Positions 10,968 to 13,488 of a DNA stretch of 64,000 bases are shown here, one piece after another. A program made the position numbers and the translations under genes. Under the pieces are notes generated by a model. The model was given only the letters and a program-made list of their open reading frames with translations, was not told the origin of the DNA and searched no databases. Position 1 is the first letter of the stretch. Each line of letters starts with the position of its first letter. Source of the stretch: Phycisphaeraceae bacterium (GTDB taxonomy: Bacteria; Planctomycetota; Phycisphaerae; Phycisphaerales; UBA1924); NCBI GenBank assembly GCA_019636615.1, contig JAHBXF010000001.1, positions 186,001-250,000 of the forward strand. The letters are read 5' to 3'.

Positions 10968-11260
10968 GGGTCAACTCCTTGTGAACTGCCACAGCCCGTG
11001 CTGATCGCTGCCCGGGTTGTTGGCGGTCATGGCAGAACGGTACGCCACCTCATAGGCCCACCGCACCCCAAATGTTCGTATTCTGATCGTATGTCCCACC
11101 CACGATTCCCCATTTGCCGTGCCGCACCCTCGATTTCTGCACGACCCGTGGCCGGGCACCCCGCGCGCCGCAAACCCCTGTCAATCCACACGTTCCGCAC
11201 ACCCCTCGCGCCCCTTCCACACCGCGCCGCAAGTTTCTTCCGCAAAATCGTCACAAAAGG

Positions 11261-11289
11261 TTGCCGCGTCACAAACCGTGTGGCATGTT
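11261..11289 (+). promoter_or_regulatory. possible promoter of the repeat transcript
   Basis: TTGCCG (11261-11266) and CATGTT (11284-11289) are separated by 17 nt, which would place transcription start a few bases before or at the first repeat (11293). The stretch just upstream is A-rich for this genome (CAAAATCGTCACAAAAGG). Matches to the sigma70 consensus are only moderate (4 of 6 and 3 of 6). Confidence 0.3.
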
Positions 11290-11292
11290 GTG

Positions 11293-11561
11293 GGTGTCTT
11301 GTCTCTCTCCTCCTAAAAGTCGCTCGCGGGCGGAAACACGCGAGCGGCATTCAGATAGGCCCGGCCGGACTCTCTCCCGGCCGCCAGCCTTCGACGGTGT
11401 CTTGTCTCTCTCCTCCTAAAAGTCGCTCGCGGGCGGAAACACGCGAGCGGCATTCAGAAAGGCCCGGCCGGACTCTCTCTCCCGGCCGCCAGCCTTCGAC
11501 GGTGTCTTGTCTCTCTCCTCCTAAAAGTCGCTCGCGGGCGGAAACACGCGAGCGGCATTCA
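11293..11561 (+). repeat. three tandem ~104-nt direct repeats with paired hairpins and CCTCCT motifs
   Basis: Copies start at 11293, 11396 and 11501 (period 103 then 105 nt) and are nearly identical; the third stops after the first hairpin, at 11561. Each begins GGTGTCTTGTCTCTCTCC and runs through CTCCTCCTAAAAGT into a perfect 8-bp hairpin CGCTCGCG/CGCGAGCG with a 10-nt loop (11321-11346 in copy 1). Copies 1 and 2 continue to a second hairpin, CGGCCGG/CCGGCCG. The unpaired C/U-rich stretch between hairpins includes CCTCCT, the exact complement of the AGGAGG ribosome-binding site. A plus-strand terminator follows at 11585. The region reads as a tandem small-RNA gene rather than protein; see findings. 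Confidence 0.6.
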
Positions 11562-11584
11562 CACGGCAGCCAATCCTTTTCATC

Positions 11585-11623
11585 ACACGCCCGGCCTCAA
11601 CGGCATCGGGCGTGTTTCTTTTT
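11585..11623 (+). terminator. Rho-independent terminator downstream of the tandem repeats
   Basis: Perfect 9-bp stem ACACGCCCG (11585-11593) / CGGGCGTGT (11607-11615) with a 13-nt loop, followed by TTCTTTTT. The T-run is only on the plus strand. No plus-strand protein gene lies upstream for more than 1 kb; the only candidate transcript it can end is the repeat region just before it. Confidence 0.75.
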
Positions 11624-11649: not shown

Positions 11650-13488
11650 GTGCGCCTCCTCCCCACGCCAACTCACGTCGAACCACTCCCCGGCACGCGC
11701 GCCGCCACCGGCCCACGCACCTTCGCCGGCACTCACCTTCCCGCGTTCGCACAGAGGCCCTGCCGCCAACTCGGCCTCACCCCGGCCCCCGCGATGACCG
11801 AGCCTTGGCTGCGCTGCGACATCACCGCCGCGCCGGCCACCCTCCCCGGCTCGCCAGCCTCGCAGGCCTACACCCTGACCATCCTGCCCGAGCAGCCTGT
11901 TTCCATCACGGCCGCCTCGCACGACGGCGCACGCCACGCCCTGGCCACGCTTGTTCAACTGCTGCGCGCCAACCCGCGCGTTCTCCCCTGCGTGCGCATC
12001 CAAGACCGCCCCGCCTTCGCCACGCGCGGCGTCATGCTCGACCTCTCCCGCGACCGTGTGCCCACCATGCGGCACCTCTACGACACCATCGACCTCCTCG
12101 CCGACCTCAAGTTCAACCACCTGCAGTTCTACACCGAGCACACCTTCGCCTACGCCGGCCACGAGCGAGTCTGGTCCGGCTGGTCTCCCATCACACCAAG
12201 CCAGGCACGCGACCTCACCTCATACGCCCGCGAACAGGGCATCGACCTCGCCGCCAACCAGAACTGCTTCGGGCACATGGTGCCCTGGCTGCGCTGCCCC
12301 GAATACGCCCACCTGGCCGAAACCCACGGCGATTGGATGTTCGATATCTGGCCCCGCAGCGGGCCCTTCTCCCTCTGCCCCACCGACCCCGCCTCCCTCG
12401 ATCTCGTCCGCGATCTTCTCTCACAACTCATCCCCTGCTACGGCTCCCGATGGGTCAACATCGGCTGCGATGAAACGTTCGATGTCGGCTTCGGCCGCTC
12501 GGCGCAGGCCGTGCAGCAGCGCGGGCGCGGCGCTGTCTACCTCGAGTTCGTCGCCAAGGTCGCACGCTTCGTGCTCGACGCCGGGAAACGACCGCAGTTC
12601 TGGGGCGATATCGCCCTTTCTCACCCCGAGTGCATCCCGCAGATCCCCGCCGATCTCACCGCACTCGCGTGGGGCTACGAGCCCGATTCCCCATTCTCCC
12701 GCTGGGGCACCATGCTCACCTCCGCCGACAACCCCCGCGACTTCTGGGTCTGCCCCGGCACCTCCACCTGGCGCGCCATCACCGGCCGCACCACCGAGCG
12801 GCGCGGCAACATCACCGCCGCCGCCGCGGCAGGCGTCGCCTACGGCGCATCGGGCTTTCTCGTCTGCGACTGGGGCGACAGCGGCCATCATCAGCAGTGG
12901 CCCATCGTCATGCACGCGCTGGCCGACGCCGCACAGGCCGCGTGGAACCCCGCCTCGCCGCGCGACAGCGCCGCCGCCTCGCTCCACCTCTTCGGCGATC
13001 CCACCGGCGCACTCTCTCAATGGCTTGACGACATTGGCGACGCCGACCTGCCCTTGCGTGAAACCTGCGGCGCGCTCTCTCACCCCAGCCGCACGCGCCT
13101 TTTGAATCAAACCGCCCTCTTCATCGACCTCTTCAAACGCACAGACGAACAGACCCACGTCGGCGCCGCCCGCGACTGGGCCGACACCCATGCCCGCCTC
13201 GATTCTCTCGCATCCTCTCGCCCAAGCGCCGCGTGCTCACTCATCAACGACGAACTCGCGCACACCGCCGCCTACGCCGCCGCCGCCGCGCGCCGTGGCC
13301 TGGCGCGCCGTGCCGGCGACCTCCCTCTCCTCCGCGATGCCCGCGATTCCCTCGCCGCCATCGCGCGCGAACACCGTCGCCTCTGGCTGGCCCGCGCCCG
13401 CGCCGGCGGCCTGACCGACAGTCTGGGATATTTCAGCCGTCTCCTCGCCGCAGACGCCGCCGCGCCGGGCATCACGCTCTTTGAGTAA
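11650..13488 (+). CDS. glycoside hydrolase family 20 (beta-N-acetylhexosaminidase-like)
   Basis: 612 aa. Residues ~1-110 form the GH20b lead-in domain (RLLPTPTHVEPLPG ... SHDGARHALATLVQLL); the catalytic barrel begins at DRPAFATRGVMLDLSRDRVPT and carries the paired catalytic residues in NIGCDETFD (Asp274-Glu275). GH20 enzymes remove terminal GlcNAc/GalNAc by substrate-assisted catalysis. The C-terminal ~150 residues are helical and unassigned. Start: GTG 11650, because the family-type segment begins immediately after it. No signal peptide, so probably cytoplasmic. It stands directly before anmK and murQ, which suggests that it releases GlcNAc from GlcNAc-anhydroMurNAc fragments in place of a GH3 NagZ; this is inference. 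Confidence 0.85.
   Translation: MRLLPTPTHVEPLPGTRAATGPRTFAGTHLPAFAQRPCRQLGLTPAPAMTEPWLRCDITAAPATLPGSPASQAYTLTILPEQPVSITAASHDGARHALATLVQLLRANPRVLPCVRIQDRPAFATRGVMLDLSRDRVPTMRHLYDTIDLLADLKFNHLQFYTEHTFAYAGHERVWSGWSPITPSQARDLTSYAREQGIDLAANQNCFGHMVPWLRCPEYAHLAETHGDWMFDIWPRSGPFSLCPTDPASLDLVRDLLSQLIPCYGSRWVNIGCDETFDVGFGRSAQAVQQRGRGAVYLEFVAKVARFVLDAGKRPQFWGDIALSHPECIPQIPADLTALAWGYEPDSPFSRWGTMLTSADNPRDFWVCPGTSTWRAITGRTTERRGNITAAAAAGVAYGASGFLVCDWGDSGHHQQWPIVMHALADAAQAAWNPASPRDSAAASLHLFGDPTGALSQWLDDIGDADLPLRETCGALSHPSRTRLLNQTALFIDLFKRTDEQTHVGAARDWADTHARLDSLASSRPSAACSLINDELAHTAAYAAAAARRGLARRAGDLPLLRDARDSLAAIAREHRRLWLARARAGGLTDSLGYFSRLLAADAAAPGITLFE

Follow-up and report, generated by a model that had tools for sequence, protein, structure and literature searches.

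A putative family of tandem anti-Shine-Dalgarno small RNAs in planctomycetes

Introduction

Within the 64,000-nt stretch of a Phycisphaeraceae genome analysed here (the window), three tandem copies of a short structured repeat belong to what comparison with related genomes supports well as a small RNA (sRNA) family, termed F1, which has probably not been described before and probably silences the translation of selected messages. On the best reading of the sequence, F1 RNAs would act in trans and independently of Hfq, blocking ribosome-binding sites (RBSs). We give a probability of about two in three to this reading in its full form, in which a stand-alone array would be transcribed from a sigma-A-type promoter, its unpaired anti-Shine-Dalgarno (anti-SD) seeds would block RBSs without Hfq, and a second family with the same seed, F2, would act alongside. 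Promoter, module, hairpin, terminator, the behaviour of arrays and the shared seed can all be recognized by comparing genomes.

If expressed, F1 and F2 would represent two undescribed, lineage-wide sRNA families without an Rfam match; a 2022 review counted only 8 distinct sRNAs in the whole PVC group (PMC9029176). Expression would also mean that bacteria lacking Hfq have evolved anti-SD seeds anew, and that evolution can tune a minimal seed-plus-terminator module, as with a dial, through its tandem copy number. Since F2 is nearly universal in the same genomes, the pair would offer a clean test of how two sRNAs with a common seed share out their targets. The first-pass annotation knew of no such family in planctomycetes, and this still holds: no planctomycete anti-SD sRNA was found in the open-licence literature, and Rfam 15 returned no match in the window at the gathering score and none of value at the E-value threshold.

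Organization of the array

The locus had been described as three repeats of about 104 nt, each with a C/U-rich strand between two perfect hairpins. A repeat search of the window confirmed that the three tandem repeats are real, with spacings of 103 and 105 nt, but the third consists of a 60-nt core only. In each copy CUCUCUCCUCCU is exposed and adjoins a 10-bp hairpin, and CTCTCTCCTCCTAAAAG is identical in all three units; TCTCTCCTCCTAAAAG does not occur outside the array in its own 3.84-Mb genome. Unit 1 occupies 11294-11396 on the plus strand (found by the repeat search and by a DNA search of its own genome, and scoring 75.6 bits with the covariance model R1, see below), with its anti-SD, C/U-rich seed CTCTCTCCTCCT at 11303-11314, a core hairpin with the loop GGCGGAAACA at 11319-11348 and an inter-copy hairpin (CGGCCGG/CCGGCCG) at 11358-11389. 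Unit 2 (11397-11501, plus strand) has the corresponding elements at 11406-11417, 11422-11451 and about 11461-11494, and unit 3 (11502-11561, plus strand; 75.8 bits with R1) has its seed at 11511-11522 and its hairpin at 11527-11556. Because only the core of unit 3 is present, this unit is without a second hairpin. The unpaired seed of the earlier description stands, but the second of its two hairpins belongs to a spacer between copies, with a sequence that other genomes do not conserve. The spacers of relatives mostly fold, yet share no common sequence; of the two hairpins, the first is the conserved core.

The array region folds far better than its dinucleotide shuffles (z -4.8; 0 of 100 shuffles as good), and in the predicted ensemble the C/U motif is 91-95% unpaired and the seed 91-100% (95% in unit 1). 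A coding repeat or peptide was considered and rejected, as the two spacings are not multiples of 3 and no open reading frame (ORF) is common to the units. The long ORFs that overlap the array are rich in R, P and H and appear to be artefacts of the high GC content of the genome, in line with the earlier statement that no protein gene lies between promoter and terminator.

The putative promoter (11261-11289, plus strand) comprises a -35 element TTGCCG (11261-11266), a 17-nt spacer that ends in TGG (extended -10) and a -10 element CATGTT (11284-11289), and transcription is predicted to start near 11294-11296. Its first-pass assignment as a plausible promoter before copy 1 is borne out by conservation at 40 homologous loci, where the consensus cTGGCA (also given as TTGGCA)-N17-CA[TC]nTT, with the extended -10, is nearly invariant upstream of the first copies; GCA is invariant, the two T residues occur in 34/40 and 39/40, and TGGCA is mostly preserved. 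The distance from promoter to seed is fixed across homologous loci, and in g16 genomes the promoter is absent directly before the first copy found. The strong plus-strand terminator proposed after copy 3 was likewise recovered, at 11585-11623 (ACACGCCCG...CGGGCGTGT followed by TTTCTTTTT), as a hairpin at 11585-11615 with a T-run in the predicted fold; a simple promoter/terminator scan of the locus gave no match.

Relatives with a single copy (four genomes and others) carry complete genes of ~65 nt that consist of promoter, start, UCUUGUCUCUCUCCUCC, terminator hairpin and a T-run directly behind that hairpin. The arrays of other genomes have the T-run behind the last copy only; in the window, instead, the hairpins of copies 1-3 are without a T-run and a separate, additional terminator closes the array.

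Distribution and sequence constraint

Among 301 genomes of the order, a DNA search revealed numerous tandem arrays within the same bacterial family (f1), and R1 was built from the f1 units. R1 matched in 77 of the 301 genomes, 70 of which (64 with E<1e-4) are among the about 118 sampled members of f1; outside f1, 298 genomes of the class gave nothing convincing, though distant relatives may be missed because the model was trained on f1. The copy number of F1 ranges from 1 to 6 per genome, which is a lower bound because several arrays sit at contig ends. As the sampled genomes are related, none of these counts represents independent events. Three same-genus assemblies break inside the array (four loci), and their copy numbers are underestimated. 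A scan for exact 16-mers across genomes yielded 105 stretches from all phyla, none of them informative, and was set aside as chance matches. Elsewhere in the genome itself, C1:893197-893251 holds CTCCTCCTCTC, a hairpin with a GGCGGAAAAC loop and TTTT; it is a weak R1 match and a possible diverged copy of F1.

The conservation of the CCTCCT segment and of the hairpins had been named as a check on the annotation, which passes it: CCTCC is preserved in 49/55 genomes, and the core hairpin covaries strongly. Across 41 distinct aligned units, 90% of the cells of the core hairpin are paired, against 30-39% for slid partners, and double changes occur in 9/11 pairs, with 48 double-change cells; all five measures of covariation exceed those of all 500 shuffles (0/500 reach any). 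The six genomes without CCTCC have CTCTTCCC, CTCCTAAT, CTCCTCAT or CTCCCCT, and a pure anti-SD role is therefore not the sole constraint. The most constrained stretch is UUGUCUCUCUC, not CCUCCU; UUGUCUCUC is more conserved than CCUCC, and within F1 the seed start TTGTCTCTC varies least. In g2 genomes an intact 5' stretch of 24 nt is joined to a different hairpin, so that what selection maintains is the 5' end together with a hairpin of some kind.

A second family with the same seed

Other CTCTCTCCTCC sites in 20 relatives led to F2, a putative second sRNA with orthologues across these genomes, which is formed by a promoter, GATCTCTCTCTCCTCC, a AGCGGGGCGC..GCGCCCTGCT terminator and a T-run, and in whose stem all 209 cells are paired. 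The corresponding model, R2, finds F2 in 117 of about 118 f1 genomes, including the one studied here, with weak matches in two other families. The genome's own copy lies at C1:1843737-1843792, upstream of a gene for an NAD-dependent epimerase-like protein. F1 and F2 have only the UCUCUCUCCUCC seed at the 5' end in common, and the terminator hairpin of F2 differs.

The C/U 11-mer is enriched in these genomes: each has about 5 occurrences, compared with about 1.5 of the reversed 11-mer. The possibility that a C/U tract followed by a terminator forms a genome-wide 3'-UTR element was rejected, since the excess comes mainly from F1, F2, a few hairpin-linked sites and antisense RBS sites. One recurrent arrangement, TCTCTCTCCTCC followed by a GGTGTGCCGC..GCGGTACACTG hairpin and often placed just before ATG (eight loci), may represent either a leader or a third RNA. 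In several genera CTCTCTCCTCC also stands directly before intrinsic-terminator-like hairpins at gene ends (six loci), and these sites are possibly sRNAs derived from 3'-UTRs.

The seed and its proposed mode of action

CCUCCU had been noted as complementary to AGGAGG, the RBS used in this genome. AGGAGG at 1190-1185 (minus strand) lies 8 nt before ATG, and the 3' end of the genome's own 16S rRNA is GGATCACCTCCTTTCT, so that CCUCCU mimics the anti-SD and, at AGGAGG, the seed and the ribosome would be competitors. With two RBSs of the genome the seed is predicted to form duplexes of -24 and -30.5 kcal/mol; the 16S tail reaches -12 and -19 kcal/mol on the same two sites, about 12 kcal/mol less favourable. 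F1 shows the features of anti-SD trans-acting sRNAs, namely an unpaired, conserved, SD-complementary C/U motif, its own promoter and a terminator. Hfq (PF17209) was found in 0/16 genomes, with control genomes positive and the genome's own assembly 92% complete.

From these features we infer how transcription, processing, pairing and repression might proceed and what the targets might be. A strong sigma-A-type promoter would drive a stand-alone sRNA gene, whose transcript would contain three modules, each with a 5' single-stranded UCUUGUCUCUCUCCUCC and then a hairpin. In single-copy relatives the hairpin would double as the terminator, giving an sRNA of ~65 nt; in the window, as copies 1-3 have no T-run and an extra terminator follows, the product would be one multivalent RNA or cut units. 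The unpaired UCUCUCCUCC would then pair with AGGAGG(AGAGA) at RBSs and block binding of the 30S subunit without Hfq, tandem copies would raise dose or valency, and the near-universal F2 might act alongside F1 through the same seed.

Perfect extended targets are few: a genome has about 3 GGAGGAGAG-N1-6-ATG sites, compared with about 1 when the pattern is reversed. The best predicted targets in the genome itself are the GGAGGAGAGAGAG-ATG and GGAGGAGAGAATC-ATG RBSs of ORFs with signal peptides (C1:1386891-1386906 and C1:1830507-1830522). By a simple heuristic, a signal peptide follows 19 of 26 coding-like GGAGGAGAG..ATG sites (C1:1386891 and C1:1830507 included), against a background of 14% to at most 37% in the same genomes. 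Control sites with another strong SD (AAGGAGGT..ATG) nevertheless have nearly the same bias (25/46; difference not significant, p=0.14), so that exported proteins are only suggested, as perhaps the targets of an anti-SD RNA. Strong SDs are seemingly linked to exported proteins, and an anti-SD RNA would therefore preferentially hit those. It is doubtful whether two otherwise unrelated sRNA families with one anti-SD seed jointly act as a switch dedicated to the secreted and envelope proteins of an Hfq-less lineage, in which strong SDs would be uncommon and mostly placed before genes for exported proteins, and the tandem amplification of one family would set the strength.

Genomic context and alternative explanations

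In the window, the array is preceded by ElbB and followed by genes for a GH20 hexosaminidase, AnmK and MurQ (peptidoglycan recycling), and the GH20 ORF (11650-13488) begins 27 nt past the terminator. This proximity, and the recurrence of GH20 with AnmK or of an SSF symporter after the array in several other genomes, would suit an element that acts in cis on the gene behind it, as a leader or attenuator. The upstream genes in relatives are often RpsB (identified from sequence only), EF-Ts and an exported Fe/Mn superoxide dismutase; downstream, however, the SSF symporter, GH20 with AnmK, an oligopeptide ABC transporter on the other strand and others alternate, and the next gene is in the opposite orientation at about 7/20 sampled loci. 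Neighbours so varied and divergent favour a trans-acting RNA; moreover, complete terminators would stop the RNA before the gene, and F2, with the same seed, sits in another context. A role in cis is thus very improbable.

The RNA might instead serve as a protein-binding decoy, either as a CsrA-type sponge, through the GGA of the GGCGGAAACA loop, or by sequestering a pyrimidine-tract-binding protein via UCUCUCUCC. Conservation of the GGCGGAAACA loop is wide in the main group, an array is multivalent in the manner of CsrB, and the C/U tract persists even where CCTCC is lost. GGA in the hairpin loops of all members, as in CsrB/RsmZ-type RNAs, is not what is found: the loop is replaced in g16 copies (GCGCAAT, CCGCAAC) and in g2 hairpins while the 5' seed persists, and F2 retains the seed without such a loop. 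Promoter-driven single copies would also make poor sponges, and we consider a decoy unlikely. Less probable still is an sRNA that pairs with a few specific mRNAs through UUGUCUCUCUC, in the start-codon region or the coding sequence, with the anti-SD part incidental. The stronger constraint on UUGUCUCUC than on CCUCC speaks for such pairing, but UUGUC lies near the transcription start, a position that may itself impose constraint, and since F2 and F1 overlap in UCUCUCUCCUCC only, their common part is the C/U and CCUCC stretch. The blocking of RBSs in trans through the anti-SD seed is hence preferred.

Comparison with known systems

The cuckoo/CcsR RNAs of Alphaproteobacteria carry an anti-SD-like motif in hairpin loops, as against the 5' single strand before the hairpin in F1, and the LhrC1-5 RNAs of Listeria have UCCC motifs. 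The first-pass annotation had drawn the cuckoo/CcsR parallel by analogy, and part of it stands: CcsR RNAs, like the window array, are homologous tandem sRNAs with one promoter and one 3' terminator (PMC10253847). They are, however, co-transcribed with the DUF1127 protein CcaF1 from RpoH promoters (PMC10253847), unlike the window array with its sigma-A-type promoter; no DUF1127 (CcaF1-like) gene was found in the array or among the flanking genes, which in the loci of relatives were called from 120 aa upwards.

Yfr1 of cyanobacteria resembles F1 in being a short sRNA found throughout its lineage, whose ultraconserved C/U motif is unpaired, contains UCCU and lies beside stem-loops. Its motif, ACUCCUCACAC, lies between two stem-loops, whereas F1 has UCUCUCUCCUCC and only the first hairpin is conserved; Yfr1 is not described as tandem arrays in PMC6778093 and PMC6974561, and has no sequence match to F1. 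As defining features of both cuckoo/CcsR and Yfr1 are missing, F1 would work like these RNAs rather than be a member of either family. Yfr10 has the Yfr1 motif but not the rest (PMC6778093, PMC6974561), which parallels the sharing of a seed by F2 and F1, and Yfr1 influences the cell wall in Nostoc (PMC6778093, PMC6974561).

The LhrC RNAs resemble F1 in that they are homologous sRNAs present in several copies, whose C-rich motifs target RBSs, but are LisR-regulated and heme-induced (PMC5880928), differ in sequence and belong to a different phylum. In the rhizobial alpha-r14/NfeR1 RNA, three hairpins with varying stems carry an identical, ultraconserved anti-SD motif, CCUCCUCCC, and these motifs are redundant at translation initiation regions (PMC10746234); they lie in the unpaired hairpin regions of one alphaproteobacterial RNA, as opposed to the repeated 5' seeds between hairpins of F1, and the parallel drawn here is a functional one.
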